Shown here: in pieces, positions 471 through 33,642 of the stretch
Layout of the letters: each line of letters opens with the position of its first letter
How positions within the stretch are numbered: position 1 is the first letter of the stretch
Source: Trichobilharzia szidati
Taxonomy: Eukaryota > Platyhelminthes > Trematoda > Strigeidida > Schistosomatidae
Length of the DNA stretch: 64,000 bases
Assembly (NCBI GenBank): GCA_944472155.2
Contig: OX235277.1
Location: 15,386,804 to 15,450,803, forward strand
Direction of reading: 5' to 3'
Notes under the pieces: generated by a model
Told to the model about the DNA's origin: nothing
Seen by the model: only the letters and a program-made list of their open reading frames with translations
Databases searched by the model: none
Position numbers and translations under genes: made by a program

Positions 471-604
471 GGTTGACGTTGTCTGACAGGTTCTAACCTA
501 TCGGCAAGCTAGCGAGCATCTAGGTGAAACGATAAATTCATCATTGAAAGTATAGGTCTCATTGGGCAATTCTTTTTATTTCCTTATTCTTTAAATTGTT
601 TTAT

Positions 605-1113
605 GCGCTCACGATGTGGAGAATGAACGAGCTTACAAGTCAAAGCAAAAATTTATCGATGGTATACAACATTTTGATGTTCTGAGGTTTACAAACGTCA
701 CGTGCTTTTGTACGCCCTATTCGCATAGAACGTTCTATTTTGTGTAAGACGTCATTTTGAACTCACACGATACAAAATAATATTGAAATGAAAACATTAC
801 CATAATATATTTCTCTCTAAGTTGTGTATGGTTTCGTGTTGACGTGAATCTTGTTTTCTTGTCACTGCGACAGAGATTGCTGTCAGACTGGTAGTAAAAA
901 TAGTAACTAAACGTGAGCAAGAATAAAGTCAACTATGTAGCAGACGACATTTCTGAACAACATTCTTAAAATTTGCTTTGTTTTATGTTTAAAGATTTCT
1001 TTGTTTTAATTATATCTGCTTTCTGTTGAAAAATGAAATTTTATTGGTTGCTTAATTTGAAAACAAAACTATTTAAGGGAGGATTTCGATCATTTCTGTC
1101 TCTGAGACGAAAC
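605..1113 (+). promoter_or_regulatory. Conserved upstream region and core promoter of gene A
   Basis: About 500 bp directly upstream of the start codon is conserved in all three gene heads (A here, C at 33150-33642, B at 52500-51988 reversed). It includes an ATTGG (inverted CCAAT) box near 1042-1047 and a TATTTAA box at 1070-1076. In every copy the TATA-like box ends exactly 38 nt before the ATG, which implies a very short 5' UTR if it directs initiation. That is inference from spacing; the transcription start is not shown. The ORF-like peptide in this stretch (735-932, minus strand) is kept in all copies only because the DNA is conserved. Confidence 0.6.
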
Positions 1114-1177
1114 ATGCTTTCCACTAATTTGTTGGCTATTAGTCTTTCTTTTTTCACTGCTCATATTCTTGTTCACG
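1114..1177 (+). CDS. Gene A exon 1: signal peptide
   Basis: The ATG at 1114 opens 21 codons plus one base, starting MLSTNLLAIS and ending TAHILVH, then the donor gtgagtata. The core is hydrophobic (LLAISLSFF), as expected of a secretory signal. The counterparts at 33643 (C) and 51987 (B) have the same 64-nt length, the same phase and the same donor gtgagtata. The next codon is split G|GA. Confidence 0.85.
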
Positions 1178-4100
1178 GTGAGTATAACAATATTCTAAAT
1201 GTTAACATTGCTCGATTACTTTCCACAAACGTTTGCTTGTGAAGACGTTTACCATTCCATAATTGATTAAAATCATAGTTGAAATCAAGAATTAGAGACA
1301 ATCCCTAATTTATTGGAATACATGTAAGAATTGTGAATAGAAATGAGTAAAATATGCAAGGGTCAAAAAATGTATTTTCAAATACAATCAGTTCAAGTGT
1401 ATCCTGTGATCTCCTTCAATCATTTGTGTACGCCTCATTGTAGGAAGTGGTTTGGATCGTGAGTTGAACACTGTTTTGAATTATAATAATTATTCATTTC
1501 TCACTACAAATTACTCCTTGTTATCAGGTTGAGACTGATTTAGTTCTAGTTCAACTGACGAAGACTGAAACGAAGAAATTATTGATTCTAACAAATGAAA
1601 GTGAATACATATGCAAAAGACACGTTGAAGGAAATAAACATATTCAGATGACTTCAGACCATATGTGCCTAATAATGATAGTCCAATTTATGCGCGTGTG
1701 CTTATATTATAACAACAGAAGGCAAGACACGGAAGCACAGGTGTATTTCCCACTGATCAAACCTGATTATATAAAAATTTTATGTAGTCCACATTCTTCA
1801 ACTAATCCCTGAGCGCAAGATTTGAGTTTACATCAAATGACATGAAATAAAACCTTTAAATATACATAGCATTCTTTTGTTAGTGCACTATATAACCGTT
1901 GGAACAACAAACAGATCGTTCAACTTGAAATACTGTATTGTGTTGCTAATACGCATGGAACTGTTGTAATATGTGAGAATAATATTTCCTTCCCACACAT
2001 TGGCTATATCGCACCACCACAATATCACATTAAAAATGTATGTTATGCATACAACGGAGAAGAATACTTGCACGAAAGACTGGAGTCCTTTGACAACTTC
2101 GTTCTCCTATGATGTGTCGTTCATGTAAACAATCAGATTAATTGTGACTCTATTGATTTTACAGTGTGCATTCAAATCAGAGACATTGAATCTGGGTATA
2201 TACTTTTAGGCAGGCTTTGAAAATATAATCAGTGAACTATATAAAACACTATTATACCACTTTACAGACTATTTATCTTATATATCTTCTTCAGCTGAAA
2301 CTATGTTGAGGATAAGTGAGTGATGTTTATCGAATATTTCATCTAAGGCGTTCATGTGGTTATTACAGTAATGTATGTCAGCAATAATCATCATGGATAT
2401 CCAAAGTTTGGAATATCATGTTTGGGATTCAGAAAAGGGATTTATCAGTCGTCGAAAATTGTCGTCATTGATAAAGAGACATCTTTTTTTCTCCTTATTA
2501 TGCATTATGGCTAGCCGAATCCTATTGCGATAACACAAATCTGTGGGAGACACTGCGTCATTACAATTTCATATGACAAGGCAACATTTTAAAAGGCTAC
2601 TGTTGACAGCATATCTCATCAGAATTATGTGTAAGGCGATAACAACTTCGTTTTTATTCTGAAAACACCGCCATTTTATGAGAATTAAGTGAGTGAATTA
2701 CATCAATTGGACAACAAAAATTGACATGTTCTCTCTCTACACACGTTTACATAGAAGCGAAAACCTTTTTTGAATGTAAGTCCATACATCATCTGTAAAA
2801 TGTTTTCAATTTGGCTTTTACACAATAAATTCATCAGTATTCTTTCTGACACTCATTTCATTACGTTCCTCGCATTTGCTAAAACAAATTTTTCGTGGCT
2901 AAAATTGCTAAATTTTCTGTTGTGTGCTTGAAAATTTCACTCTGTCGCCCTTATTTAAATCAATATGGCATGTTTAACCCCATAAGTTCGATGAGTTTTG
3001 TATGAAACAGGCAATTTCGCCAAGTCGAATTAAGCCTAAAGAAACTGGTAGCAGATTATCAGTGTTTGTGAAATTCTAGTTCGCAAGATCTGCAAATAAA
3101 CAACATGGGATTTAAATTTTAGTTTGATAGAGATAAATGATTGAACGATTTGCTTTATTTTGTATTGAGGGACCGCGTAATTAAACGTCTGTAAGCATGC
3201 ATGGATTTAAGTTTTCTGGAATAACTTTGAACAATTAAATCATTTGATGATGAGCCTCTATGAATAAATTTTTGATTTCGGTACATATATCCTGATAGAA
3301 ATGTTACCATTCCTATATGGCAATCATTTGTACCAGAAGCTAGTATTACTTCTTGATATTTAATGGCTCACATGACCTTAATAAGAATCTGACTTGCATT
3401 CATGATGTCATCTGTTAAGAAACCTTATAACATGATTCGTTATAAATCATTTAAATTAATCCCAGCGTCTTAAGATAATCAAAACAAGAATTTCCACAGA
3501 CGCTCGGATTAATTGAAATAATTTATAATGAATCAATATGACCTGACACTCAAATTATTCCAGGAAGTTCATAACACCTACAGCCTTGAAACCTATAATA
3601 ACATGATGTTGTCATTGTGTTATCTCTTCACTCTATAGTCACTCTGAGGGTATATTATTTACTGTCCGATCAAGTAGGCACAATTTGTAAGATGCAAATG
3701 GTGAATCATGGGTAACTGGTAGCTTGATATAAAATTGCTGTGTAATGAAGACGGATAAGTTGTCTTCTATAAATTATTGCATAGCGATTAGACCATTTGA
3801 AAATTTTGTTCATTTCAGGTCGAAAAGAATGTGAGTTTATATGCCTGTTTTCTCCTTGTCAATGGTATGCTGCAAAATGCAGTTCATCACAATAGAAAAG
3901 ATGGTCCATATCGGATATAGGTAAATTACTACTACCAATCAAATCAAGAGATGGAAAATAATGGAATTATATAAACGAAGTTAAATAGTTGTGTGAGTAC
4001 CTTGATATGATTATGAACAATAAATAGTGCTCGAAACGTCATCAGTAAATAGTATTGTATAACACTGTGTGACTTCACGAAAACAAATTCTAGCCGCAAC

Positions 4101-7100
4101 GGAATTATGCTCCGCCACAGTGCACAAGTTTTATTCTTAAATCCAGGTTACGTCAATCCTGTCTTCACTCCAAATTCTTTGCTGAGACTCCATTCATGAA
4201 TACATTTGTGGCCGCCTTCGCCTTACAGCTGTTGAATGAGAGATATAAATGTTTTCTTCGTATTTATGAAGCGTTTGTAAATATTCTTTACGCACAACTC
4301 TGTTATTAGCCTCTACAAAGTTTGAATTTCATGCGAACATGTGAATGATATTCGAGACTTCGTTCTACGATGATGATCCATGATATTAGATATTTGGAGG
4401 CAATCAGCAGGGAACCTTAGACGTAGGTTTCGTACTAGTTGCCAATCGTCAGTAAGACGTATCTGCAGCCTTGAAGGAACTCATGTCTCTTCTGAGACTC
4501 CAAACCGCGTCACCCAGTGCTGCACTCAGAGACGTTACCACGCAGTTTCGAATCTCAGAAAGGAACATGAGTTCCTTAAATATTGCACTCAACAGTGCCA
4601 AATAGCAGGAAACCTGGGTCCAGGGCTTCCCGCTAATTGCCTTAAACCAAGTTATATCTTCAAATAAATGTGCAAAGTGATAGCGCGCATCCTAGAATGA
4701 TGGCCACAATGCAAACCCGCCTGAAAGAATTCACTCTGCACCAAAGAAACGACTAGATACGTCACACTTGTTACTAGTGTACTTTGATATTAATCCACTC
4801 ATGAACTTTCTTTCCTAAATCATTGATGCTGTAAGGTGAATCCAGAAAAATGATTCTTTGTTCCATTGCTGATGAAGCTAATGTCAGTAGAATCTTAATG
4901 AACAGCATGTTTTGCGATCCATGACATCTAATTCTTTGCAGAGTGTTATGAGAAACCATAAAATGATGATAAACTTGATGGCTCACTTACAGTAGCTGCT
5001 GCTTTAGGGACACATACAGCCGTCCAAACTAATTTATCCATTAAAGGCTGTTTCCTAAGTCATAATTTATTGACACGAATTTCGACGGAAAAATAATAAG
5101 ATTGTCTGAAACGAGTAGTAAATTTGCGTAACATATGTGGACATTCACAGCAAACACGTAATTATCATGCACATTTATCTAGAAGGCGACGGAGCGTGAA
5201 TTATTACAATATATTTGAATAGCGGGAGAATGACAAATGTACCAGTTTAATATAAACTTAATGTTTATTTTTTCTTTGACTCTTATCAAATGGTTACAAG
5301 ATGGATGATATAAAGACGAATATTAGATTGACAATTGTAAAATACATTTTCCATGATGACAAAGATAAATGAGTAGAAACTAAGGGTAATATTAGCCAGG
5401 AACGATGTAAGTTGTTAAATAGTTAGCACTGAAAAAGAATGACGACTTTACAGAAATTACATGACCATTGCAAAACAGGCAAGAGTGCCAAATAAGAGGT
5501 GAAAAAATGGCGTCAGGCTGTAGGGTAAGGGGAAGAAGGAAGTTGATGAAACTGTTTTTAGGTAAATTGTACCTTCCTGCCAAACTCAATCACTAAAGGA
5601 GGCTCAATATAATGACAAACAATACATGTACACATTGTTGACGTCACTCTTAGTTCCCACAATTTTTCTTCGTCGTCATAAAAAATGTATCTTCAAATCT
5701 GCAGTGTAATTTATGTTTTTATATATTTCATCATGTAACCAGTTGAGAAAAATCATAGAAAAAAAAACCTGATTCATATTATGCTGACACATTTTTCGTT
5801 CTTGACTCACTCAAATGTGTTGTAATAATTCATGCTTTCTCACTTTCTATATAAATGTGTGTGATAATTACGTTTTTGATGAGAATATTCGAATATGTTG
5901 CGCAAATTTGTCACACTCTTAAGACAAGTCACACCTTCTAATGATGATTATGTTTCATCTAACTGAAGCGTAATGTTAGCTGTTCTACTTGTCATTGACA
6001 AAACTGTTTCTATTGTATGTTTTCACATCAACTCAATGTAGTTTGTCAGTCATCATCTAACTACAAAACAGATGAAGACTGTCCAATAAATACTAAACTA
6101 AATGCTGAGTGACTATTTCAAGCAGGACATTTTCTAACTGCTATTGATTATTTTAAACAATATTATCATTAAACAGTAGTCTTACATGAACCACATTCCA
6201 GTTTTGTTATCAATCATTGAAATTACTTTTGCTGAAATATTGCAGTATATCCACGCAGTGTACCGAAAGGTAAATTTTTCTGAAATTTTTCCAGTACCGT
6301 CATTATATATCCAAACATATGATGTTAAAAATGCAAAACAGCGTTGTTGTGCTCAACTCTCTTTCACTGTGAATTTTCGCAACTTGAAAGTATTCTTTGA
6401 AACACAGTAATTTGAGGTTTGATGAGTTAAACTATGACACGTGCAGTAGTGCAATGTTAATTCATGTGAATCCGGTATTCTTATTAGTAACAGTAGTATA
6501 TTTATCTTGAAAAGTTACAATCAGCTCATATTCACTCGAATTCTCTTCAATATGATCACTTTAATCGTAAGCTGAGGAATATGTTTCGAATGTAATCATC
6601 GTTCTATAGATACAGTTGTTATAATCAGCTGAGTGATGGCGAAACAAGAAATAATTGAGTCTGAATGGTTATGTTAGAAAAACATTGGAAACATCCTAAG
6701 CAGTCAGTATGCTCCATTTGGATGCCAAGAAACAAGTAACAACAGTTATAAATAAAAAATGTATTCACAGATATTTTAGAAGTAAACATTAAAGAAATAA
6801 TGTGTGTAAAGTAAAAGCTATGAAGTGTTCAGTGATTACCCTTGAGAAGAATGATTAATAATTTAGAGGTGAACACAGTGATGAGAAATTTTTGAGCAGG
6901 ATTTCTTCATACTTTCTTCCTTTTTGTCGTTAACATTTTCACTTGCTGTGAATGGTTTCATTTGGAGAGATTCTAAGCCGATCAACAATTGTCGAAGTGA
7001 ATTATGATGAATCATTTTAATATCCACAGATTATGTTCAAATAAGTAAGATTTCTAGAATTTTTCTGGTGTCATCGGTTTAGTTCCAAGTACATGAAGTG

Positions 7101-10100
7101 ATGAAAATAAGTCAAAATGATTATGTTCGGCCTACTCACTGTGCGAACACTGAATTTGTTAAGTGTCCTACCAAAACTGAAAGATTGTCGAGATTTGTAC
7201 AGGTTAACCATAGGTTATGCATGAATTAGTTGACATACCGGCTGTGGTCCATGACGTAGGTAGTGAAAATTACAAATACACCATATTTACTGGGATTCTT
7301 AATACGATACTCGCTGAGGCATTTCACAGATGCACCTGTTCAGTCACATTTTATACATGACATAATGGTTAGATATAAAAAGAAGTCAAGTCTTTGTGAA
7401 TACACTGGAAAGGAAATGGAAATGTCTCGTGGAGAATAAATATGTCATTCGGAGATTAGCGGACGAACAATCATGGCGATAAATGAAAGATGCTTTTAAT
7501 TAAGCTTTTCAAATGATGCACCTTGCCACAGAACGTTTCTCCATGAAATCTTATTTCTGCAGATTTTATCGGTTTTACTTGAGAAAAATGCTGATGGATA
7601 TACAGGGGAGTAGAATTCTGTGTAAATTTACCTGATGAAAAAACGTATCATGGAATTCTAAATAAACATGATGTATTCACCTGGAGTCAATTTTGTAACA
7701 TCTCTGTCTTTGTGTGATGTGAACAGAGGATGGCGCTATTAAACTAAAGTGTTTTGAATTTGATTTCTGCATATTCTGAGTACACTCACTGTTAGAAATA
7801 CTGTAACTAGCATACGAATCTTTACCCTATACATCGAATCTTATACTCAGACGTGGAAGGTAAATCATATATTTACTGAAATCATAAAATATTTATAAAA
7901 CATTTTCTGGAATACGTTAGAGAAGTGAATAATATCAAACTGGATAACTGAAGATGAAACTGAAACACACTTCACAGATAGTTTTGACGTGGTAAACATT
8001 GAAATGAGCAGTGAAACAGTTGATTTAAAGTTTGGATGAGATTTTTACTAGACGCTCGAATTTGCTCCACGCCCACGCTCTTCTCAAATGTGATATGTGT
8101 TGCATCCCTAAATTGGTTATGTTGCACAACAGTCTGCTGTCAGATAAGCATCTGCGATGGTGTCACATGAAAGTGGGTTAAAATTCACTCTTTATCTAAC
8201 GTTAATTGACGAATAAAGATTAGAGAGATTTCTTGCCTGCAATCTCTTAAATAAATAGAACCAAAGCAATTTATGATGTTCAATTAAAAAAAGAAGATAG
8301 AACAACTGAGTTGCAGTTTATCAAAGCAATTGTGAAAAATGCTTTCAGTGGAATAGTGTGCAGAGTCATTCATCAATCTGTAGTTCATCCATATGGTCAA
8401 TTCTATATAAGTTTTAATTTTGTGGTTGCGATTCAGTCATATTCAGTCCTCCAAAAGCTACTCTGAGTGACAAATTATTTGTGAATTTTCCAGTCTTCTA
8501 TTCCAATGTAATAACATTTATCGAATTCGACCAATTCTACTAATTTATTTGGTGATTACAAATCATATAGTTAACATTTATGATGACATCTGATTGTTAG
8601 ATCTCATGAGTAAGTGCCTTCTAATTGTTAATTTACACTCAACAAAAATAAATAAACTAGAGATGCATGGATAAAAAGTTGTTATAAGTTGATATATGAA
8701 AATGTTTTACATAAAATGCGAGTGCTGTTGATTGCAGCTTTGTGATGAAACCATACTTCACCTAAGCACATGAACATAGTTATATTGGTCACCCTTTATT
8801 CTTCGTCATCAGGTAATGCGAACATCATATCAGAATTTTGATTCCACCGATAATAAATGACTTTACACCTATAAATTTTGCCTGTATTGATGTGTATATA
8901 ATGGGTCATACACTGAATAAGTTCTTTTTTCTCTCTAAAGAAGAGTATAGTGAGTCATAATATATTCCAACACATCGTCTGCATTGACTAAGTGGGTAAA
9001 AATCTATCTCTTGTTATTTTGCTTGAGTGTGTATGATCTCAGGCCTCGTTGATTCGTATTCTTGGATGCTTTGCAGAACAAAACGCTTCACAAATTATCA
9101 AATTTGAAATATTTTAGACTTGTATATAATTGTGAACTAAGAGCAGACATTTTCGAAATGTATTTCATCAACACACTCTTCCTGTGAAGTAGAACTGAAT
9201 GCATTTTACTCTTGTTGTTGCATAGGAGATAATCGTAAGTTCGCCGTCGTATAGGTTCACACTATCTCAGATGCGTTCACAAAGTTAAAATGTACACACC
9301 TTTCTGATTTCACGATAGGTGTGGTGGTTGCAGATTTATGTCAAAGAAATCCCATTTCGAAGATTTCAGTCCTAATTTCACTAGACAATATTTTCGGTAT
9401 AAGTATCTATGTGTATTTGTATATGTGTAGAAACTTATCAAGTTTCGATAAAAAATGACTTCGTTCATATTCCATGGCAACTGTCGAAACATCAATGCTG
9501 ACATGTTTGCGTAGAGTTCAATATTCAACATACATTTTTCAGTAAAGGGTTTCTTCAGATACTCGGTGGATCTGAAATGCAAACTACAATTAGTTCAAGT
9601 AAGCCACCCATAAATATGTTCACACTTCAAGGACAAGCCGCAAAAAGTAGAGGTGACTGTGCAGATGAGAGAACGATGAAAGTTTATGAAAGTGAAGACT
9701 GACATTGACGAATAATAAAGATCAAATCTGAAACATTTTACCTGAATGTCGTGTAATGCTGATAAATTTGATCATCACCAAACAATCAAAAATTTTGCAA
9801 TTCCTTTACAGTAATATTATAAAATATTTGCATAAAAGATGAGTTAAATTATTCGCAGACCAAATCCTCACATAAACAGTACCCTGTGAATCTCAGTTCA
9901 ATAGGGGGTTAGTTAGAATTGATTTTAATCTATGCTATTTGATCTGAAATTCAGAAATGGCAGTTATTCTTTTCTAGCCCAAAGTAAGTAGATACTTGTT
10001 TGCTTTGAAAATATCACTCAGCAGTATTCTCGAGTCATTGGTGTCCACACCTTTCCCATTTGGTGTAGTAAAACAGTCTATTACCTGAGTCTCTCGATCC

Positions 10101-13100
10101 TCCATAGTTACTGTGGTGATGAAACATGTAGGTTTAAAAAGTTTATGAGAAATCAATAAATAATACGGTGAATACATATTTTGTCACTACCACTGAAATG
10201 TCACATGAAAACGGAGTAACAATCAGTCATATTTCTACGGGAGAATAAATAGTTCAAATCAATGCTGTAATTCCTCAAGATCCATTAACTATAAATTCTG
10301 ATAGGATCAAAATTCAGAAAAGATAAGGAAAAAAGATTTTTGATGACTTTTTAGAAATTTCTTTAGTAGACATTTTCTGATAGATCAAACTTTCCTGCTG
10401 AGTATTTTCCTATTCATTGATTCTCTACTCTGAGTTCTCTCAAGTTGTATTCATCAATTTTCATAATTTCATATGTTGAATGACATAAGTCAAATAACAG
10501 AGGAGTTACTGAAATATGATTTTAGTTCTCTGAATACTAATGACAGACACATTTTTACCTACATAGCTTAATATAATTTCGGTGGAACTGATGTCACTAG
10601 ATCGCTAATCAGAAGGAGGATTTTTCTGCATCAAAATTTCTCACTGCGTTTTCACAAACATATTTTTTTTAAACAACATGAATTGTATTAAAAGATGATT
10701 CCATCTATCTGCTTATGGGTTAATTGGTTTACTTTCAACTTGCAGAAAGAGACGGTGAGTAAATGAATAAACTGTTTTATGAATTAGATAAAATGATAGT
10801 TCTTAATTTCGTTGCATTAGAGATTACATGGTCACCTGTAGTGTGGACAGAAGTTTCTTTATGGCTTCATGCTGTAAATAATAAGACACTAAATGGTACC
10901 TTCAAAAGTATTGCATTACCAGTTTAGGTCCATTTACGCTGATACGATTTTCTCATTGAATAGGTGACATTATCGTATTGAACATGTACCGGTATTTATT
11001 ACAAACTGTTTTCAAACTGTAGCTATATTTACGTCTTCACTGTTGCTCAGAAATCATTCGTGAGTTCTTACAACCATCAACTTGCTTATTTCAACTAATT
11101 CACTTTTATTAAAAGCCCATGATATACAGAGGTTGAACAAAATCTTTATGAGATATGTAACTGGACGGTGAGTTTTTAATAGGCGTGAATAGAAAGTTAT
11201 CAAGATGGATGACACGCAGCTGGCTGAACTGGGATGTATGATCTTGTGGAAGCATTTATTCAATGAAATTTAGGCAGCATCTACTTCACATACTCTGGGT
11301 AAAACACATCTGAAACACATTTGTGCTGAAATTTTTAGAACTTTATAAGTATTACATCTTTTATTTCATCAAATAGAAAACATCAGTGAGTAATTTACTA
11401 CAAGTTTTGAGTTGTTCATGCTTAAGTTAAGTGATGATTTCTTGGTGTGTAACGCAGGTTGCAGTGTGGCATGTAAACGTTCTACAATTCACTTGTATTT
11501 GCTTCTACTCTCAACATGGTCTTTGGTTCTGTAGTATTTGTCTCTCTGACTTCCAGCTCAAGAGTCCTATTTGTTGCTGTTTTGCTAAATTATGTATCAC
11601 TTATCATCCACTTGGCTCGCGAAACACAGTTTAGTGCTGATCTTTTGTAGTCATTTGAAGACATTATAAATGCCAGTAACTTCCCTCCTCGTCGTCCATC
11701 GCAATCACAAAGAAAGTTGGTTACACTAATTAATCTTGTATCAGTCATATCTTCACTTCAAGTGCTTTACTGAGAATCTCGTTGAGAATTACTCTGTTTC
11801 CTTCATCATAAGGTAATCATTGAGTAGGTTGTTTAATGGCATCCGGCACTGCGCTCCATGTTGCTGAATAACTATTTAGATTACTTTTTAATTGACGACA
11901 TCAAACGGATGAATTCGAAGGAGGTAGGTGATAGTTATTCTGGTCTGTTTCTTACAACGATACACGATACTTTATCCATTTCGTGATAAATCTATACGAA
12001 AAAATGTAGTTTTCTCTGTGCTCTCAAGAGACCAAATAATTTCGAATACACCATGAAAATTCCGAATCATCAGGGTTGTCTTGGTGCTCATGTGAAGAGA
12101 AATTGTTGATAGTCTTGCGTCATCACCAAACTTTGTAGAAAAGTTAAGCTTATAATATTCTTTGAAGTTTCTGTTTTTATAGGATGACTGTTGTAAAGAT
12201 CATCGCCTCTACACTGGTCATACGACATGATAGATTCGGTACACAAAAATAAAATAGGCTTTCATTTTGCAATACAGATGCAGGTGAGTCTTCGAAACGA
12301 AAGCATGAAAATGAAAGTTGTTTTGAGTGCTCTGATCACATCTGAATACATATAATTTTATTCATTTCACATGAAACTGCTAAAATCACATATCTGTATA
12401 ATAAATTGTTGATGGCATCAACTAAATCAGGAAAGCGAAAACACGCTGTCTGTTTGGCTCTTAAGTTTTTTGGCTGCAATCATATTAAATATTCAAAAAA
12501 CAGGTTGTAGTATTATTTTGCCACATCGCATTTAACTCTAAAGTATGAATATTCTGGTGACGAAATGTGTGACGAATCCAAAGTGAAGTTAGGAAGGAGA
12601 CTGATATCTTAGTGGTATTATAAAAACGTATATATATACTCCTTTCAACTCCTTGTTATTACTCAAGACAGTATAACTAGCTCTCAGAACTAAATTATCT
12701 AATGATCTCTGTATTTTAAATTGAAGACCTCGGTGAGTGACCTACTGCAAAATATCCGGACAGCTTATGCGGTTATTTTCCTCAGTACAATATAAAATAA
12801 AAGCATGTTTAATTGCATCAACATTCAAGCCCATGAAAACTGATCATTTGTCTGTATTACTGACCTTCAAAATCAAAATGAAGAAATTTTACATGATGAC
12901 TCCATTTTTACTTTCAAAACGTTTATATACATTTTGCTTACTTTTCACTTTCCACCAACAACTGATTATGTAAATAGAACAATGTCAACGTAAGTCACGA
13001 GGGCACATAAAGCTAATTTACAAACCAATAATGATAAAATGATTTCAGACTTCACTATGTAAACATTCTAGCGCCATAAAAATTGAGTGTCATACATTTT

Positions 13101-14905
13101 GATGACTGTATTAGCAACTTTCTTACTTCAGTCACTTCAGTGTGAACCTCGCTGATATAACGAAGTCAAGATAACTAATTGCTAGTCACGTTTTAATGTC
13201 AATATATCTGAACCAATGATTGGAAAAGATGAATAGCATTTGTAGATCGTTTTCGAATTTTCTCAACAGGTATCATTTTCCAAGGTGAACATGGTGTCAC
13301 CCTATTAGCAATCACATGGAATGATTGACTGGGTCATGCACATACATCGAGAGATACTTCTCATAAAAGCAAAATCTGTAGAGAGAGATGAAATGAGGCT
13401 ATCCATTTTTGTAACTACGTGAAAAGAACGTTTTTCTTCATTCATCAATGTTGTGTGGATGCACGAAGAGCTAAGTTCGAATTAGAGTTGGCCATTGTCA
13501 AAGCGTATGGTCAGCGTCTGTCAAAATTCCTTATTTCCCTTTAAATATATTGGAAAATACACTAACTCCTCAGTTGCTTGAATGCGAAAGTCAAGTTTAT
13601 GACCCACTTATAAGAATTAGAGTCTAACTGAAGATGACAGAAGAGGATGAATAGTACTTAATATATTTCTCTCAAATGGTTGATAGGGGAAGTAAGTTTC
13701 CACCTCATTATTACTGTACGGACTTCGAGATGTTACCCTACTGCAGACATTTGAATAATTCCAGAACCAACACAAATGTAAAACGTATATCCACGTTATT
13801 ATCATATATGTCACAGATGGCAAGAATAAGAATTTATGTCGGATAAATAATAATACAGATGATTTATAGTTCAGGTGTATATTATTATATCGTTATGTTC
13901 TTCGATTGCATCAGTTTAATCGCGATTACATTGTCTAGAAGGGAATTGAAAGCTTACAAATTAAGTCAATCAAATCAGAGAACACAAACAAAGAAAAACA
14001 TTCACGTTTACAGTGAACCTTCCAGTATTGTAGCCTGTACACTACTCGCCTCAAGAAATAAATTAATCAAAACTGCATACATCGATGCAGTAATATAAAT
14101 TCACATATATTCACTCATCCCTCGTGCAGCAGGAAACATTTGATATTTTGAGTTTGGCTAACAAAAACAATCATCGAAATCTGATCCAAAGTGACTTGAT
14201 TACAATACAAATTTAACATCGACACAAAATTTGTGAGTAGGTATTCATTATTGAAAAGTTTATAGTGATACTCCATTGTCAATAATGTCGTACGGTTACC
14301 AAATGACTGCCCACATTTCGAAATATTTTCAGCTCCTAACATAAATGAGGTGCTCCTTATTGTTCACACATTTTGCAGAGACCACGTTCGCTTGAGAAAA
14401 AATGTGTGCCATTGTGCGGTTGTATCAAACATATTGTTTTGAACGAGTTATGTTACCTCCGCTCTGGAGAAGACGACTTATCATGTATCAGTTTTGATGT
14501 ATCACATACGAGTTCCCTTTAGGGTGTTTGTAAGAATTAAAATTCAAAACAGGCATCATTAAATATAAATATTTTTTGTTGATATTTTTAATAAATTGCT
14601 TATGTATCAAACTTTTGTTAAGAGACATTTGTATATACATTTATCAAGGGATACAAATATTTGTAATTTTGATTTACAGAAGGCCAGCAGAACAGCCAAA
14701 GGCGGGATCAGAGTTTTACAACCTTCAACATGAAATATTTGTGATAGAACTGTCACTTTTTTCAAGTGAAATTATCTGTCTTCTAAAATTTCTACTTCAT
14801 ACAACAAACGACATCTGGAATAATTACATGTATGTATTAAATTCGTTTTTTAAATAACCTTTAAGCAATTAACACTCAATAAAATAAATAATTCATAAAA
14901 GAAAT
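1114..14905 (+). CDS. Micro-exon gene A: secreted variable protein (complete copy)
   Basis: This is a spliced gene; the span includes introns. Predicted exons are 1114-1177, 1444-1458, 2295-2315, 2755-2775, 3819-3830, 6246-6269, 7030-7044, 7230-7259, 7851-7859, 8601-8609, 8941-8949, 9226-9234, 9978-9983, 10746-10754, 11051-11059, 11377-11385, 11458-11472, 12278-12283, 12727-12732, 12978-12989, 13270-13284, 13687-13691, 14523-14529 and 14680 to about 14905. Exon 1 encodes the signal peptide and ends in phase 1. Exons 2-21 are 6-30 nt, all multiples of three, so any of them could be skipped without breaking frame. Joined in order they contain no stop and give about 108 residues. Each exon has an AG acceptor, a GT donor (mostly GTGAGT or GTAAGT), and a same-length counterpart in copy B. 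Signal peptide plus symmetric micro-exons is the hallmark of schistosome MEG proteins, which are secreted into the host and vary by exon skipping. The subfamily is not assigned. Exons could have been missed, and the ends of the last exons are less certain. Confidence 0.8.
1444..1458 (+). CDS. Gene A exon 2 (15 nt)
   Basis: The sequence is cctcattgtag | GAAGTGGTTTGGATC | gtgagttgaac. In phase 1 it reads G-S-G-L-D. Equivalents: C 33973-33987 (G/S-S-G-F-D) and B 51657-51643 (GSGLN). It is present in all three gene heads with the same acceptor and donor. Confidence 0.85.
2295..2315 (+). CDS. Gene A exon 3 (21 nt)
   Basis: The acceptor is atcttcttcag and the donor gtgagtgatg. Phase 1 reads P-E-T-M-L-R-I. 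The counterpart in B is 51071-51051, also 21 nt, reading S-E-S-M-L-R-K with the identical donor. Four of 21 positions differ. Confidence 0.85.
2755..2775 (+). CDS. Gene A exon 4 (21 nt)
   Basis: The acceptor is cacgtttacatag and the donor gtaagtcc. Phase 1 reads K-A-K-T-F-F-E. The counterpart in B is 50661-50641 (donor gtgagtc), reading K-A-E-Q-L-F-Q. Eight of 21 bases differ, nearly all of them changing amino acids. Confidence 0.8.
3819..3830 (+). CDS. Gene A exon 5 (12 nt)
   Basis: The sequence is gttcatttcag | GTCGAAAAGAAT | gtgagtttata. After exon 4 the split codon is TGT, so it reads C-R-K-E. The counterpart in B is 49578-49567 (C-Q-K-E). The split Cys codon is kept in both copies. Confidence 0.85.
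4399..4641. repeat. Fold-back (inverted-repeat) element in intron 5 of gene A
   Basis: The outer ends gcaatcagcaggga and tcccgctaattgc are imperfect inverses of each other. Further in, aaggaactcatg pairs with catgagttcctt, and gcgtcacccagtgctgcactcagagacgttaccacgc forms an inner palindrome. Arms are about 110 nt. The orthologous segment in gene B (48738-48988) has kept the same structure. It could be a MITE-like insertion older than the duplication, or a transcribed hairpin. The ORF seen here (4380-4667) has no support as a protein. Confidence 0.5.
6246..6269 (+). CDS. Gene A exon 6 (24 nt)
   Basis: The acceptor is gctgaaatattgcag and the donor gtaaattttt. It reads L-Y-P-R-S-V-P-K. The counterpart in B is 46300-46277, reading I-Y-P-V-V-G-K-E. 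Nine of 24 exon bases differ, but only one of the 36 bases before the acceptor and about one of the 40 after the donor differ. Confidence 0.85.
7030..7044 (+). CDS. Gene A exon 7 (15 nt)
   Basis: The sequence is ttttaatatccacag | ATTATGTTCAAATAA | gtaagatttc. Phase 1 reads D-Y-V-Q-I; the TAA visible in the exon is out of frame. The counterpart in B is 45558-45544 (D-Y-V-Q-R). Confidence 0.85.
   Translation: MMFK
7230..7259 (+). CDS. Gene A exon 8 (30 nt, the longest internal exon)
   Basis: The acceptor is gcatgaattag, with a weak pyrimidine tract, and the donor gtagtgaaaa. It reads I-D-I-P-A-V-V-H-D-V. The counterpart in B is 45358-45329, reading I-D-L-L-S-V-F-L-D-V with 7 of 30 bases changed. 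The splice signals are weaker than for its neighbours, but length and frame are conserved. Confidence 0.65.
   Translation: MTYRLWSMT
7851..7859 (+). CDS. Gene A exon 9 (9 nt)
   Basis: The sequence is tcttatactcag | ACGTGGAAG | gtaaatcat, reading D-V-E. The counterpart in B is 44719-44711, GCGTGAAAG with donor gtaagtgat, reading G-V-K. Confidence 0.8.
8601..8609 (+). CDS. Gene A exon 10 (9 nt)
   Basis: The sequence is catctgattgttag | ATCTCATGA | gtaagtgcc, reading D-L-M. The counterpart in B is 43971-43963, GTCTCATGA with donor gtaagtg, reading G-L-M. Confidence 0.8.
   Translation: MS
8941..8949 (+). CDS. Gene A exon 11 (9 nt)
   Basis: The sequence is cttttttctctctaaag | AAGAGTATA | gtgagtcata, reading K-E-Y, with a strong pyrimidine tract. 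The counterpart in B is 43608-43600, AAGTTTATA with donor gtgagtcata, reading K-V-Y. Confidence 0.85.
9226..9234 (+). CDS. Gene A exon 12 (9 nt)
   Basis: The sequence is cttgttgttgcatag | GAGATAATC | gtaagttcgccg, reading R-D-N. The counterpart in B is 43357-43349, GCGATAATC with donor gtaagtttgccg, reading S-D-N. Confidence 0.8.
9978..9983 (+). CDS. Gene A exon 13 (6 nt)
   Basis: The sequence is cagttattcttttctag | CCCAAA | gtaagtagat, reading P-Q. The counterpart in B is 42595-42590, with the identical 6 nt, acceptor and donor. Confidence 0.8.
10746..10754 (+). CDS. Gene A exon 14 (9 nt)
   Basis: The sequence is actttcaacttgcag | AAAGAGACG | gtgagtaaatg, reading K-R-D. The counterpart in B is 41829-41821, GGAGAGCCG with donor gtgagtaaatg, reading R-R-A. 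Confidence 0.85.
11051..11059 (+). CDS. Gene A exon 15 (9 nt)
   Basis: The sequence is cttcactgttgctcag | AAATCATTC | gtgagttctta, reading E-I-I. The counterpart in B is 41525-41517, identical in the exon, with donor gtaagttc. Confidence 0.85.
11377..11385 (+). CDS. Gene A exon 16 (9 nt)
   Basis: The sequence is ttatttcatcaaatag | AAAACATCA | gtgagtaatt, reading Q-N-I. The counterpart in B is 41215-41207, AAGAAATCG with donor gtgagttat, reading Q-E-I. Confidence 0.8.
11458..11472 (+). CDS. Gene A exon 17 (15 nt), probable
   Basis: The sequence is ggtgtgtaacgcag | GTTGCAGTGTGGCAT | gtaaacgtt, reading S-C-S-V-A. The counterpart in B is 41134-41120, same length, reading G-C-S-T-A with donor gtatac. 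The donors are weaker than elsewhere, so this one is less certain. It adds a Cys conserved in both copies. Confidence 0.5.
12278..12283 (+). CDS. Gene A exon 18 (6 nt)
   Basis: The sequence is cattttgcaatacag | ATGCAG | gtgagtcttcg, reading Y-A (or N-A if exon 17 is skipped). Equivalents: B 40242-40237, ATAAGG (donor gtaagt), and D 63335-63330, ATGAAG (donor gtgagtcttcg). Splice sites are preserved in three copies while the six coding bases differ. Confidence 0.85.
12727..12732 (+). CDS. Gene A exon 19 (6 nt)
   Basis: The sequence is tattttaaattgaag | ACCTCG | gtgagtgacc, reading D-L. It is identical in B (39755-39750) and D (62842-62837). Confidence 0.8.
12978..12989 (+). CDS. Gene A exon 20 (12 nt)
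   Basis: The sequence is gattatgtaaatag | AACAATGTCAAC | gtaagtcacgagg, reading E-Q-C-Q. Equivalents: B 39504-39493 (E-Q-C-L) and D 62395-62384 (D-F-C-L). The Cys is invariant. Five of 12 bases differ between B and D, while the donor-side intron is almost unchanged. Confidence 0.85.
13270..13284 (+). CDS. Gene A exon 21 (15 nt)
   Basis: The sequence is gaattttctcaacag | GTATCATTTTCCAAG | gtgaacatg, reading R-I-I-F-Q. Equivalents: B 39213-39199 (S-V-I-F-Q) and D 62001-61987 (R-V-I-L-Q). Donor gtgaac is shared by all three. Confidence 0.8.
13687..13691 (+). CDS. Gene A exon 22 (5 nt), candidate
   Basis: The sequence is caaatggttgatag | GGGAA | gtaagtttcc. The same 5-nt block and donor occur in B (38783-38779 AGGAA; second tail 36711-36707 AGGAC, gtacgt) and D (61716-61712 AGGAC). 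It is not a multiple of three on its own, but it pairs with the 7-nt exon 23 to restore phase. An alternative acceptor at 13640 would give a 51-nt exon (13641-13691) that has a stop in A and D. Confidence 0.45.
14523..14529 (+). CDS. Gene A exon 23 (7 nt), candidate
   Basis: The sequence is cgagttccctttag | GGTGTTT | gtaagaatta. The same 7 nt with acceptor and donor occur in B (37943-37937) and D (60892-60886); the second B tail has lost it. Joined after the 5-nt exon it reads (G/E)-(E/D)-G-V, then T|AA across the junction with the terminal exon, a stop codon split by the intron. Confidence 0.45.
14680..14905 (+). CDS. Gene A terminal exon, 3' UTR and polyadenylation signal
   Basis: The strong acceptor taattttgatttacag is followed by AAGGCCAGCAGAAC. 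Two overlapping AATAAA signals lie at 14878-14888. The same acceptor and AATAAA occur in B (37797-37565 and 35728-35505) and D (60735-60515). If exons 22 and 23 are both used, the first codon is completed to TAA and this exon is entirely 3' UTR; if not, one of the other frames adds a tail of up to about 60 residues in A. The reading frames differ between copies, which favours UTR. Confidence 0.6.
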
Positions 14906-14909
14906 TTAT

Positions 14910-16000
14910 TTTCACAAAACGAATGTTTCTACCTAAACTGTAGGAAGAAGTACAGTATTGATGGCTAACTAGCAAGCCACTTTGGGGATCGTGGTTGTTT
15001 AATGTGGACTACATTGTTTTCTACTGTTCATAGTATTCTATATGCGGAAGAATTTTGCAGAAATAATTACAGACATACCTACACATGACTATAATTTTTG
15101 TGCCAATAATAACATTTCACAATCAAGTTAATGCACGAATGTGATGGATGGTTTACATAAACACCAAGAATAAGTAATGTCATATCAAAACATAATTAAA
15201 CAATATATCAGATTCATCGTTAATCAGAGAATAACCAGAATCCTCAGGTAATTAAAGGTGAAATGTAGTTCACTTGGCAAAAACAACTATATACTCCATA
15301 GAACCATATGGCCTATAAGTCAGTGATGGTCCTGCCCCGTTTCAAATGATGCTGAAAGCAGAAAATAGCTTCTTTATCCGTAGAAACCCATTGGAAAGTT
15401 ATTATCTTATAATGCATGAAATAGATCCATCATTGAGTCAATATATTTATCAGACTGAGGACACATAGATTCGCAAACGTGGAACCTTCTCACACTGCTT
15501 ATCTCATGCAGAGATATCACTCATAAGTGTCTTTCTATTCAAGAATATACTTGCAGTATACAGCAAACGAACACAACTGAAAGACTACTACAAATATAAT
15601 TAATGAAATCCCGATCGGCATAGAACAGCGAATATTTTTAGCTCGGGAGAGTAATATGTTGGTCCAGTTGAATTCTCTCATCTGTACTGCTTAGTTGTGA
15701 AGCCTTCATTGGCGCAACAGGCAACATTTACAGCACGTACTTCAACTTGAAGTCAGCATTTAGAATTCTCAAATGGTTTGTTAATCACTTAACCTAGCAA
15801 ACTTGGCCAGAATTGATGTTTTGTGTGTATACAAACTGTGAACTCATGTTAGTCAAATACTCAGTTACACCAGCTACAACCGAATAGCGAAAAGAGGAAC
15901 ACATGTAAAGATTACTCATGATGGCATGGAACTATTTTATCACCCTTACATTGGTAAAAAAGAAAGAATAATTTCTTAAAGCTCTCTTATACTGTAGATA
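14910..16000. other. Downstream flank of gene A, no gene seen
   Basis: This is non-coding sequence homologous, in inverse orientation, to the 3' flanks of B (34700-35500 and 37050-37560) and D (59800-60500). Beyond that shared homology I see nothing functional. Confidence 0.6.
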
Positions 16001-16019
16001 TCAACCTTCAAGTCAACTG

Positions 16020-16345
16020 ACTGAATCAAACCCGGGCCCTTCCGGTTACAAGGCTAGCTCGTATACCATTCAACCACTTGGACTAGTTTTGCTGACTTAT
16101 GACACATGGACTTCCAGGAAACTCCATCCTGCAGGAAGTTACTGGCGAGCATCAGATTAATTTTCAATCGTTGGTTTTTAAGAATTGGATTTGCTTTTAC
16201 GAGTTGATCACATATTGATGTCAGTAAGAGAATTATTGAAAACTGCAGAGAACTAGACAGCTGTTTCATCCTAGTATGAGGATCATCGGCAGTGGGCAGA
16301 ATAAAGCAGCTGTCCAGTACTTCCTGGTTTTCAATGATCCTGCCA
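16020..16345 (-). repeat. SINE-like element with tRNA-like and hammerhead-like segments
   Basis: Read on the minus strand, 16090-16022 resembles a tRNA: aagtggttgaatggtatacg (A-box-like), an anticodon region CCTTGTAACCGG, and GGGTTTGATTC (B box). About 200 nt upstream on the same strand, 16300-16255 reads CCGATGA, then TCCT cata ctAGGA, then TGAAACAGCTGTC. That matches the hammerhead ribozyme core order (CUGAUGA, stem II, GAAAC) with one core mismatch. Schistosome S-alpha SINE-like repeats are known to combine a pol III promoter with a hammerhead. A tRNA-like half alone recurs at 34135-34200 (+). Confidence 0.5.
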
Positions 16346-16349
16346 TTGA

Positions 16350-17655
16350 TATTAATCTATGATAAGCTCGTGAAAACAAATCTAATCCGTACAAATCAAA
16401 TATTGAAAACAAATTAAACAAAATAGACACCCTCATTTTTAAGCTTATTTCATATAGACTTATGCTATGCAGATGGTGTCCAGTGAGACAATGAAATATC
16501 CACAACTAATTTATCCAGCTCTAAGAACCCATTTAAACCGAAACCTTCTCTGCAATTTAATACAGATTAATGTGTAGAAATAATAAGAAACTTTTATCTC
16601 TTTCAATGAGGAGAGCTTTCAACGCTGTTGAATTTCAACATGTTTTCCATGTAAAACCTAAGATTTGCATGAAACTAAAGCACAAATCACCACTGTTGGC
16701 CACATCAGCATGCATCTATCAACCCTTCTGCCCCTGTGGAGCTTAGTATTTCGGTTGAACTCATCGTTTGCTACCCAATAATTATTCTTCATTACTTTTC
16801 CTCTGCCTTGATTTAGCAAATAAGAGCTAAAGTTCAACTCAATAATATTTTCACCGCGTTCATTCCTCTTCACACAAGTGAAATGGATTGTAGTAATTCA
16901 TGTAATTTTGACTTCTATTTTACTGTTTATGATAAGAACGTGTGTTATTAGAATGTCCCGAACGTGTAACGCAAATGCAATCCACGTGTAAGATTAACGA
17001 CATCTTCTAAATTTTACTCCGAAATTCATAAAAAGGAGTAATTATGTTGAAAAAACAATATGTTTAACAAAGTTACTGTTTGAATCGAAGTTGATTTCAA
17101 TACTGAGTGATACGGAATTTGAAGGCAATAAACCCTTTCTTTCAAAACATTTTTCAATTTCTCAACTAATATTTTCTGAATCTAAGCTAATTCACCAACT
17201 ATGCAGCATCATTACATTTTATGGATGGAGTAGTTTGTCAGACAGTAGATGATGATGACTTTGACTACCATCTTTTGAACGATGAACAATTCTCACGATG
17301 CCTACAGTTGGGAAACTACTGGTGAATGGCACTGAAGTGATCCATTCATGGGGAAATTTCAGCCTGATATATTTAGGAAAGAGAATTTTCACGGAAGAAA
17401 ATGTTTCTGAGTTAGGTTGAAAAGTTTTAAATGTTTATTTTAAAATATCTCATGACAGTCAATTTCTATAAGATTATCAGAATTCTTTCGACGAATGTTG
17501 GCTAACAATCAGTATTCAGAGATGTGGATTTCTGGTATAGTTGACGTTCATTTTAGAATAAATTACTTTTGTGTACCATGAACAGGATTGATTTTCATTT
17601 GGAAAGTTGATTTTTTCATCGTAGTTGATGAAACAGATTGTAATCAAAGAGGATA
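16350..17655. other. Intergenic, nothing recognised
   Basis: AT-rich DNA with only short, unsupported ORFs on both strands. No duplicated gene segment or splice-framed block was found. Confidence 0.5.
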
Positions 17656-20600
17656 CAAGTATGCAACTAAACGTTTCCCGACCGAAAGCTGCTACCTTGA
17701 CGTGGTGGTCGGGCTTGAACACTGCAATGACCCAACAAGCTATACTGGCTGGAACTTATGTTCCTGCAGGTCCTACCATGCCAGAAAGGTTGTTTGGATA
17801 GCAGTTAGACTAAAAGCAGTTACCCAATCCAATCCTATGATTTCAAATAAATCACAAAATATCATGCCGGATCGGTCGGGGCCCGGATTAACAACGACCG
17901 CGCTTTCTGCTGCCGTGTCACAGGGCAGAAGTGATAAATACGCTACTGAGACACACCAAATAAAAAATAACAAACAAAAACAGGCCGTGTGTGACCGGCC
18001 TCAAGCAGTTGTCCCCTGGGCTCTGCGGTCACGCAACCAACTTCCACGGTGTGGGCAGCCGGGAAGTAACAATCGCCCTCACAATCCGAAGTGCACGCGA
18101 AACCCCTCTAATCCTCGCTCATCTTTGCCTTCATCTTCATCTCTATTATCTTGCCTTCCTTCTACCAATGCAACTCCTCTACTTGTTGGCTCTTCACTTC
18201 CCCTTCACTCTGTGTGCACTGATAACGATGGAAGCCAAAAAGCCACCACCGATTGTCTCCTAAAACCACGCCACCAATTTTATATAGGAGCATTTAATGT
18301 TAGGACACTTTGCCAAATAGGACAACAAGCATCACTAGCCAAGACTCTGGCATCCCGAGCCATTGATGTATGTTGTGTTTCAGAAACACGCATACAAGAC
18401 CCAAGTGTGGTTATTCACCTAACCCCACCTGGCCAACAGGGTGAATCTGCAAAATTCATCTTGAGGGTGTCAGGAGATGCGACGGCTAGCTCACGAGGAT
18501 TAGCTGGTGTTGGGATAGCTTTAAGTACTAGGGCAGAAAAGACATTACTTGACTGGATCCCGGTAGATAGCCGAATGTGCGCTGTCCGCCTGAACGGATC
18601 AGTGAAAAGGAGAAAGGACTGCACTACTCGCCGATGCCTTTTCGTAATCTCCGCCTACGCCCCCACTGACTGCAGTTCGGATGAAACGAAGGATGAGTTC
18701 TACCAAAAGCTGTCTAGTTTGCTACGAAAGGCTAGACGCTCAGATATAGTCGTTTTAGCCGGTGACTTTAATGCTCAAGTAGGGAAATTGTGTCAATCTG
18801 AGAAGAATGTTGGTGGCACATACGGAATTCCGTGCCAACGAACCGACAACGGTAACCGTCTCCTACAGTTCTGTTCAGATAATCATTTGTATCTTGTAAG
18901 CACTAACTTCAAACACAAGGAGAGACACTGTTTGACCTGGCGACCTCCATCATCAAATCAACGCTGGACACAAATAGACCACATAGCAATAAGCTATCGT
19001 TGGCGTGGGTCGGTAGGAGATTGTCGCTCCTTCTGGAACACGTGTGTAGATACCGATCACGCACTGGTCCGCGCTCGTGTGTGCTTACGACTGAACGGAC
19101 GTAGGAAACAGCTGGCGGTAAACCCATCACGTCCCCAGCTCGACCAGGGAACTAAGTCCCTATTTGAGGAAGAACTAGCTAAACACATATCTGAGTTTGA
19201 CAGCTGCGCTCACCCTGAAGAAGCCTGGAAGAATATTCAGTCAGCCATAGATACAGCTGTAAAAGCTGTGAATAAGGTAAATCCAAAGGTGAGTAAAAAC
19301 CATTGGATTTCGACTGCCTCATCCGAACTGATAGATGCTAGAAGACTTATTCCGGCGAGCTCCGAATTCAATGAGGAGCGAAAGCTGCACAAGAGGAAAC
19401 TTACGAAAAGTCTCCGCAAGGACCGTGAACAGTGGTGGTTGACAAAGGCGAAAGAGATGGAAAAAGCATCGGCGATAGGCAACACCAGACAACTATTCAG
19501 GCTTATCAGGGAAACAGGTGGTAAAAAACAAATGATAAGCGAAACAATCTCCGAGAAAAATGGCACCATAATTAGCTCCCAGGATAGACGTCTGGAGCGC
19601 TGGAAAGAACACTATGAGGAGCAGTTTAATTGGCCCACAGCCACACTTAACCTACCGGACATCCAACACCTCCCTGAATGGGAGATAGACACAGGTCCTC
19701 GGTCCTTAACCGAGGTTACTAAAGCTGTCACCAATCTGAAGCTAGGCAAAGCAGCGGGACCTGATTTATTGACTCCAGAGGTATTTAAGTACGGAGGCGA
19801 CAGTTTACTGTCTGCGTTAACGGAGGTTCTAGGCAGCGTCTGGGAATCAGAGGAAAACCCATCGGGTTGGTGTAAGTCACTGATCATCCCGATATACAAG
19901 AAGGGGGACAAGTCGTCTTGTGATAATCACAGAGGGATTAGCTTGACTAATATAGTATCTAAAATCCTAGGCTCAATAATACTGCGTAGAATAAGTGGTG
20001 CTCGGGAGACACAAACACGAGAAAACCAGGCAGGTTTTAGGCCAGGTAGAGGGTGTATCGATCACATCTTCACCCTTCGACAGATTCTAGAACATAGGCA
20101 TTCCTACCGGCGTCCGACAATCATTATATTTCTTGACCTAAAGGCGGCATTCGATTCTGTCGACCGGGAGGTTCTCTGGCGATGCTTGGCTGTAAAGGGA
20201 ATGTCAAGAAAATACATTGCACTGATTAAGGCACTCTACTCGTACTCATGCAGCCAGGTGAGGGCTTATGGCGAGTTGTCATCTGAAGTGGTGACGACTA
20301 GTGGTGTCCGTCAAGGATGCCCATTATCCCCATTCCTATTCAATTTCATCATAGATGTACTAATGGACTTAACCCTAACTCAATCCAGCGACTCAGGGAT
20401 TGACTTGCTACCAGGGAAGAATCTCGTTGACTTAGAATATGCGGACGATATAGTCCTTCTAGGCGAGGACTCTGACAAAATGCAGAGTCTACTGAACACC
20501 CTGAGCAACAATCTCCGCATGTTTGGCATGCGATTCGCCCCTGTAAAATGTAAGATGATGCTGCAGGATTGGACTTCATCGACCCCTAGATTAGAAATAG

Positions 20601-20830
20601 GAAGTGAAGTGGTAGAACACGTTGACCGCTTTACTTACTTGGGAAGTACCATCAGCTCCAACGGGTTGATCTCCGACGAAATTTCAGCACGAATACAGAG
20701 GGCTAGGTTCGCATACGCCAGTTTTCGCCGTCTCTTGCGTAGACGCGATATCCGACTATCGACCAAAGGGCGTGTGTACTGCTCAACAGTCCGCTCGTCC
20801 TCCTTTATGGCTGTGAGACCTGGCCATTGA
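17588..20830 (+). CDS. Endonuclease-reverse transcriptase polyprotein of the non-LTR element (frameshifted near its C-terminus)
   Basis: The ORF is 1080 codons. The first 80 or so are probably leader or flanking sequence, so the true start may be the Met near residue 84. From residue ~234 (GAFNVRTL) runs an exonuclease-endonuclease-phosphatase domain, with SETRIQDP, GDFNAQVG (~392), WTQIDHIAIS and DTDHALVRA (~487). The RT runs from ~700: GKAAGPDLL, IPIYKKGD, NHRGISL (~780), FLDLKAAFDS with the catalytic Asp (~848), GVRQGCPLSPFLFN, and the YADD active site (~950), then YLGSTISS. One base is missing near 20797, which throws the protein out of frame and ends it at 20830. The catalytic motifs are intact, so decay is recent. 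It would nick target DNA and copy the element RNA into it. Confidence 0.85.
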   Translation: MIFIWKVDFFIVVDETDCNQRGYKYATKRFPTESCYLDVVVGLEHCNDPTSYTGWNLCSCRSYHARKVVWIAVRLKAVTQSNPMISNKSQNIMPDRSGPGLTTTALSAAVSQGRSDKYATETHQIKNNKQKQAVCDRPQAVVPWALRSRNQLPRCGQPGSNNRPHNPKCTRNPSNPRSSLPSSSSLLSCLPSTNATPLLVGSSLPLHSVCTDNDGSQKATTDCLLKPRHQFYIGAFNVRTLCQIGQQASLAKTLASRAIDVCCVSETRIQDPSVVIHLTPPGQQGESAKFILRVSGDATASSRGLAGVGIALSTRAEKTLLDWIPVDSRMCAVRLNGSVKRRKDCTTRRCLFVISAYAPTDCSSDETKDEFYQKLSSLLRKARRSDIVVLAGDFNAQVGKLCQSEKNVGGTYGIPCQRTDNGNRLLQFCSDNHLYLVSTNFKHKERHCLTWRPPSSNQRWTQIDHIAISYRWRGSVGDCRSFWNTCVDTDHALVRARVCLRLNGRRKQLAVNPSRPQLDQGTKSLFEEELAKHISEFDSCAHPEEAWKNIQSAIDTAVKAVNKVNPKVSKNHWISTASSELIDARRLIPASSEFNEERKLHKRKLTKSLRKDREQWWLTKAKEMEKASAIGNTRQLFRLIRETGGKKQMISETISEKNGTIISSQDRRLERWKEHYEEQFNWPTATLNLPDIQHLPEWEIDTGPRSLTEVTKAVTNLKLGKAAGPDLLTPEVFKYGGDSLLSALTEVLGSVWESEENPSGWCKSLIIPIYKKGDKSSCDNHRGISLTNIVSKILGSIILRRISGARETQTRENQAGFRPGRGCIDHIFTLRQILEHRHSYRRPTIIIFLDLKAAFDSVDREVLWRCLAVKGMSRKYIALIKALYSYSCSQVRAYGELSSEVVTTSGVRQGCPLSPFLFNFIIDVLMDLTLTQSSDSGIDLLPGKNLVDLEYADDIVLLGEDSDKMQSLLNTLSNNLRMFGMRFAPVKCKMMLQDWTSSTPRLEIGSEVVEHVDRFTYLGSTISSNGLISDEISARIQRARFAYASFRRLLRRRDIRLSTKGRVYCSTVRSSSFMAVRPGH

Positions 20831-33110: not shown

Positions 33111-33149
33111 TAGTAAAGTCTATTATGAAGCTGTGCTCATGATTTGGTG

Positions 33150-33642
33150 ACTGAACGAGCTTACAAGTATCAGCAATAATTCATCGATTGCATACAACAT
33201 TTTGAATGTTTTGAGGTTTACAAACGTCACATGCATTTTGTACGCCCTATTCGCATAGAACGTTCTATTTTGTGGAAGACGTCATTTCGTACTCACACGA
33301 TAAAAAATAATATTGCAATGAATACATTATCATAATATCTTTCTGCCTAACTTGTTTATGGTTTCGTGTTGAAGTGAATCTTGTTTTCTTGTCAGTGTGA
33401 CAGAGATTTCTGTCAAACCGATTGTAAAAATAGTAAGTAAACATGAGCAAGATGAAAGTCAAAAATGTAGCATATGACATTTCTAAACAACATTCTGAAA
33501 ATTTGCTTTGTTTTGTTTTAAAAGATTTCTTTGTTTTGATAATATCTGCTTTCTGTTGAAAACTGAAATTTCATTGGTTGCTTAATGTGAAAAAAAACTA
33601 TTTAAGGAAGGATTTTGAACATTTCTGTCTCTGAGACGAAAC
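33150..33642 (+). promoter_or_regulatory. Promoter of the orphan head, copy C
   Basis: Homologous to 630-1113 of gene A. It contains an ATTGG box near 33573 and TATTTAA at 33599-33605, which ends 38 nt before the ATG, as in A and B. Confidence 0.55.

Follow-up and report, generated by a model that had tools for sequence, protein, structure and literature searches.

The interval at 1114-14905 of the window, as we call the whole stretch of 64,000 nucleotides analysed here, is best read as a genuine micro-exon gene, intact and coding for protein, in a bird schistosome resembling Trichobilharzia, a reading to which we give a probability of roughly 0.9, with transcription and splicing predicted from the DNA. 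The window holds two complete copies of this gene (A and B), a third (C) cut by the window end, and an apparently dead fragment (D), arranged in an inverted segmental array. The array is best described as an unannotated family of the micro-exon gene (MEG) type; we find no support for placing it in any named MEG family.

Gene structure and copies

Copies A and B share 19 exon-like blocks (Table 1), listed by scanning the two for conserved donor and acceptor sites. The 17 internal exons of copy A have lengths of 6-24 nt, 201 nt in total, and all of them are multiples of three. The 18 introns of the model range from 245 to 2415 nt, and every one is in phase 1. When joined, the exons give an open frame in both copies (109 aa in A and 118 aa in B, 60% identical), and the other frames of the joined A and B exons contain several stops. 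In A and B the first junction is preceded by 21 mostly hydrophobic residues, a putative signal peptide as judged by eye. The predicted mature peptide is hydrophilic, has two conserved cysteines, and would comprise approximately 87-96 residues for the cleavage site assumed.

Table 1. Exons of copy A and location of all copies, in positions of the window
Feature	Position	Strand	Remarks
Copy A	1114-14744	+	19 blocks
Exon 1 (start codon, hydrophobic leader)	1114-1177	+	64 nt; donor GTGAGT in A, B and D
Exon 2	1444-1458	+	15 nt; present in B and D too
Exon 3	2295-2315	+	21 nt
Exon 4	2755-2775	+	21 nt; conserved Cys 41 coded jointly with exon 5
Exon 5	3819-3830	+	12 nt
Exon 6	6246-6269	+	24 nt; weaker donor, GTAAAT in A and B; picked partly by frame
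Exon 7	7030-7044	+	15 nt
Exon 8	7851-7859	+	9 nt; weaker donor, GTAAAT in A, GTAAGT in B; picked partly by frame
Exon 9	8601-8609	+	9 nt
Exon 10	8941-8949	+	9 nt
Exon 11	9226-9234	+	9 nt
Exon 12	9978-9983	+	6 nt
Exon 13	10746-10754	+	9 nt
Exon 14	11051-11059	+	9 nt
Exon 15	11377-11385	+	9 nt
Exon 16	12278-12283	+	6 nt; present in B and C too
Exon 17	12727-12732	+	6 nt; present in B and C too
Exon 18	12978-12989	+	12 nt; present in B and C too
Terminal coding exon	14680-14744	+	stop TGA at 14742-14744
Copy B	51987-37696	-	19 exons, 118 aa, frame open
Tandem duplicate of B 3' part	35004-37063	-	second terminal exon at 35728
Copy C	59457-64000	-	last four exons; truncated by window end
Copy C exons 16, 17, 18	63335-63330, 62842-62837, 62395-62384	-	terminal exon from 60735
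Copy D	33087-34086	+	exons 1-2 only: 33643-33706, 33973-33987

A sequence-only reading of this DNA had described the interval as empty by ORF length, and none of the 8 ORFs of at least 110 aa listed in the window indeed lies within 1114-14905. Its inverted copy at 52-35 kb corresponds to copy B, which extends over approximately 52540-34700 (copy A over approximately 551-16030, plus strand), and the AG and GT flanks at identical places in both copies, the common phase 1 of the introns (18 of 18) and the joined frame open in both are all recovered in the model. As for the twenty internal blocks that it reported as multiples of three, 17 are supported and have this property, the other three are unsupported, and the sizes of up to 30 nt are replaced by the range given above. 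The GTRAG donors it reported are present in both copies for 15 of the 17 internal exons; exons 6 and 8 have the donors given in Table 1. Regarding the proposed end at 14905, coding already stops at 14744, and an AATAAA at 14878, downstream of the stop codon of copy A, fits that position.

Identity between A and B is 78-92% in 40 of 47 alignment segments of 400 columns each, and the remaining 7 coincide with insertions or with regions of poor alignment. Exons 1-18 align with zero gaps. The terminal exon differs in length by one nucleotide near its end, which makes the C-termini of A and B differ; they have 21 (A), 30 (B), 11 (B duplicate), and 11 (C) residues, each including one placeholder for the split codon. 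A tandem duplication of approximately 2.05-2.08 kb in B (35004-37063 and 37054-39138, minus strand) doubles the terminal exon, and the second one is a possible alternative 3' end. Copies C and D played no part in defining the exons; of the internal exons, C contains 16-18 and D contains exon 2, and all four keep AG, GT, and length. C also retains the acceptor of the terminal exon, and D the donor of exon 1. Upstream of the start codon, positions 604-1113 (A), 33132-33640 (D), and 52486-51990 (B) fall within matches that are approximately 85-86% identical, and this shared region is a possible promoter. A conserved donor-like block is also seen upstream of the ATG, at 729-743.

Several mobile or repetitive elements accompany the copies. 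An intron of B contains a self-complementary stretch of approximately 394 nt (47181-47574, 87%) overlapping a minus-strand ORF of 153 aa without a Pfam match, which resembles the endonuclease of a Penelope-like element. An intron of A carries an inverted repeat of approximately 286 nt (5102-5387 and 5646-5927, 73% identical), and the copies are flanked by reverse transcriptase fragments at 30822-31202 (plus strand, below the Pfam cut-off) and 53081-53476 (minus strand).

Membership in the MEG class

By its structure, the model fits the MEG class. The internal exons lie within the 6-36 nt range of the short symmetric exons of MEGs, being in phase 1 throughout, and all introns lie within the range of 0.1-5 kb. 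The fraction of coding sequence in micro-exons is 201 of 330 nt (61%), in comparison with approximately 80% in excerpts of PMC5825161; this shortfall is one of degree, the published figure being approximate and given for the whole group. As for occurrence in schistosomes, it is indicated by one mobile element of the same window, a LINE at 17588-20830 (plus strand) with an open frame of 1080 aa that includes reverse transcriptase and endonuclease domains (Pfam). Among the 120 of 437 matches listed, a Trichobilharzia regenti protein shows 90% identity to this ORF, covering 50% of the query region, and 16 rows labelled Schistosoma show 43-72%; one of these labels ends after 'Schisto', and the two best-scoring of the rows belong to S. 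rodhaini (69%) and S. japonicum (66%). Of the rows with a named organism, the top three are all Schistosoma. The most probable organism is a Trichobilharzia-like bird schistosome and not a Schistosoma. Together, the signal-peptide-like leader (judged by eye), the 17 tiny symmetric exons, long introns, duplication, and fast exon divergence match the description of MEGs in the published excerpts, so the MEG pattern named in the sequence-only reading is supported.

As for the known MEG families with which the earlier reading had suggested comparing the joined peptide, no homologue was found and a named family is unsupported. Among 7 candidates in the protein database there was no match at E ≤ 1, and a second search returned zero candidates sharing three words with the peptide; the database includes schistosome and T. 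regenti proteins, and the search requires exact words of 5 residues, which distant kin may escape. Pfam gives weak sub-threshold matches and no family above the cut-off, Rfam no match at gathering score, and the best PDB match, a ribosomal protein with an E-value of 0.019, is judged to be due to chance. Neither A nor B contains any of the six MEG motifs published in the excerpted part of PMC10526429, in our own rendering of the patterns. According to the same excerpts of this 2023 review, very few motifs beyond the signal peptide are conserved among MEGs, and the missing sequence similarity is therefore expected.

The locus was not found in the article listings and excerpts covered by the literature search, and it may already be present as a transcript in published supplements. 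Excerpts of PMC5825161 report relatives of MEG-4, MEG-8, MEG-9, and MEG-26 in T. regenti, and those of PMC6362228 list 10 MEG transcripts in T. szidati and 4 in T. regenti, some of them not close to S. mansoni MEGs. The same excerpts state that the latter transcripts were annotated through BLASTp searches with six GenBank reference sequences as targets, and a family as divergent as that of copies A and B could escape such a procedure.

A gene for a secreted protein that has small exons, does not share descent with the MEGs, and came to look like them by convergence would agree with the empty protein search, the missing motifs, and the micro-exon share below the figure quoted in PMC5825161. However, with so few motifs common to MEGs in the excerpts of PMC10526429, similarity would hardly be expected in the first place, and exon size, symmetry, intron lengths, and clustering all fit MEGs. 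Such convergence is thus considered unlikely.

Divergence between copies and conserved blocks

Mismatches between A and B amount to 70 of 326 exonic sites (21.5%), counted between the exons of A and those of the joined model of B, versus 1973 of 12763 intronic sites (15.5%). Random gap-free intronic block sets of equal lengths reach 70 mismatches in 85 of 10000 draws, and sets drawn within 400 nt of each exon do so in 30 of 3000. For the internal exons alone, 43 mismatches are observed, a value reached by 138 of 3000 random sets. The excess of exon over intron divergence is modest. The whole A-B alignment pairs the terminal exon of A with the B duplicate (35728) and not with the exon at 37787, which gives 77 mismatches in 326 sites and one exonic gap; the intron rate and the block nulls use this whole alignment, the last part of which compares A with the B duplicate.

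By codon position, the mismatches are distributed as 25/24/21 and, showing no concentration at third positions, they leave no classical signature of purifying selection. The dN/dS ratio of A versus B is 0.83 overall, i.e., not above 1, with 1.62 in the leader exon and 0.69 in the remainder, on few sites. These values suggest fast evolution with the frame kept and, given the few sites, fall short of proof of positive selection. Introns show 90 gap events over 12763 aligned sites, which corresponds to 2.3 gaps expected in exons, so the absence of gaps is by itself weak evidence.

The same figures bear on the view that the family has recently died, leaving the blocks as relics of a micro-exon gene without a protein product in this genome. 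Fragment D is reduced to two exons, its further exons were not found, and its junction codon is a stop; if it is dead, as it appears to be, part of the family is decaying. Exon divergence that is not below intron divergence, the duplicated terminal exon of B, and the one-nucleotide difference between the terminal exons of A and B point in the same direction. A and B, however, have full open frames, intact splice sites, and 18 gap-free exons (the last of these being weak when taken alone), and we consider death of the whole family improbable.

The frame of the blocks was evaluated by a frame-blind scan with a donor score of at least 7 and an acceptor score of at least 6, compared with 200 resampled alignments. 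On the coding strand, 18 conserved donors yield 16 blocks with both acceptor and donor, whose lengths modulo 3 are distributed as 15/1/0, and at the same threshold the minus strand has 5 donors and zero blocks. The resampled alignments contain 4.2 blocks on average and at most 11, spread evenly as 285/253/294. The binomial probability of at least 15 multiples of three out of 16 is 8e-7 for a frequency of 1/3, and 1.1e-6 for the frequency seen in the null. Taken alone, the count of conserved donors lies within the range of the 200 resamplings (mean 10.1, maximum 19), and it is therefore their pairing with acceptors and the frame that carry the evidence.

On the coding strand, four other threshold pairs, applied without a null, give 14/1/0, 16/1/0, 25/14/15, and 18/7/8; the corresponding minus-strand values are 0/0/0, 0/2/1, 8/4/9, and 7/3/8. 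Multiples of three form the largest class on the coding strand for all five pairs. With looser sites (donor 5, acceptor 6) the minus strand also produces 21 blocks (8/4/9), which counts against the gene reading. The strict set covers 15 of the 17 internal exons; exons 6 and 8 come from a looser scan. As for stop codons, within-exon shuffling leaves the joined internal exons free of stops in 0.35% of cases for A and 0.14% for B, and 0.65% of random intronic block sets of equal lengths are stop-free. GTRAG sites number 35 in A and 37 in B, 19 of them at the same place of the alignment. In the comparison of A with B, mismatches occur at 4 of 108 sites in donor positions +1 to +6 and at 0 of 36 in the acceptor AG, both counts being biased by the selection of exons through conserved sites. 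That any two aligned introns of such length would give such blocks by chance is a negligible explanation: such an alignment is expected to contain about four blocks with conserved donor and acceptor and up to 19 conserved donors, but the 16 blocks found exceed the null maximum, 15 of them share one length class, the minus strand has none at the same threshold, and the joined frame is open.

Candidates away from the 17 internal exons are not enriched in multiples of three (14/17/20 by length modulo 3). The block at 2137-2163 was rejected for in-frame stops in A and B, and 11116-11167, the single block of the 16 outside the main length class, for its 52 nt, which three does not divide. A 42-nt block at 5365-5406 in A and 48013-47972 in B has a conserved GTAAGT donor and a phase-1 frame that is open in B; its acceptor is weak (4.8) and its frame in A contains a stop, so that it was rejected for A and is possibly an exon in B only. 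Two further candidates with the weak donor GTGAAC, 13115-13141 and 13270-13284, are open in A and B and were rejected, the former for a stop in its C counterpart and the latter for a donor unmatched in C (by eye); they might conceivably serve as exons in A and B.

Predicted products and comparison with known systems

For the intact gene, transcription would most likely start just upstream of 1114, the pre-mRNA would be spliced through the 18 phase-1 introns, and the leader would be cleaved and the product secreted. Since all introns are in phase 1 and all internal exons are multiples of three, any internal exon can be skipped in frame, and skipping could yield isoforms that differ by steps of 2-8 residues. 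By analogy with the class, one gene might in principle provide many closely related secreted peptides, and duplication of whole copies and of the terminal exon in B may add further variety. Judged from known MEGs, the product is most likely secreted or exposed at the surface, acts where worm and host meet, and is subject to diversifying selection.

Tentatively, and at somewhat less than even odds, the array may represent a new MEG family confined to the bird-schistosome lineage and missing from present protein sets, an inverted multi-copy phase-1 array with coding exons outpacing their own introns in divergence. If so, skipping of any of the 17 internal exons would allow up to 2^17 in-frame combinations. 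A gene of this type goes unseen when ORF length is the criterion, and standard gene finders easily overlook it; here two paralogs in one window sufficed to expose it, and paralog alignment could find others across schistosome genomes. Such an array in a bird schistosome would help to date the spread of the secreted-variant system and would reveal host-facing products that are possibly missing from current annotations.

Among known systems, MEG-26 is compared here by description; excerpts of PMC5825161 attribute to it a signal peptide, an amphipathic helix, and duplications specific to individual species. In the present copies, the maximum helical moment is modest for A, at 0.38, and higher for B, at 0.56. 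Unlike the present genes, which have a duplicated terminal exon, MEG-26 contains an internal repeat according to these excerpts. The Trichobilharzia MEG transcripts in the excerpts of PMC6362228 probably come from the same genus and were likewise compared by description. In comparison with the MEGs of S. mansoni, S. japonicum, and S. haematobium, the copies differ in that no match in sequence could be detected and that the six motifs taken from the excerpted review are missing from them. The leader exon diverges fastest here, opposite to the trend that excerpts of PMC4350168 give for S. mansoni-S. haematobium MEG orthologs, a comparison based on few sites. What the copies share with these MEGs is the hydrophobic leader exon, the size range of the symmetric exons and of the introns, and, according to the excerpts of PMC5825161, PMC4350168, and PMC10526429, clustering, inverted and tandem duplication, and raised exon divergence.
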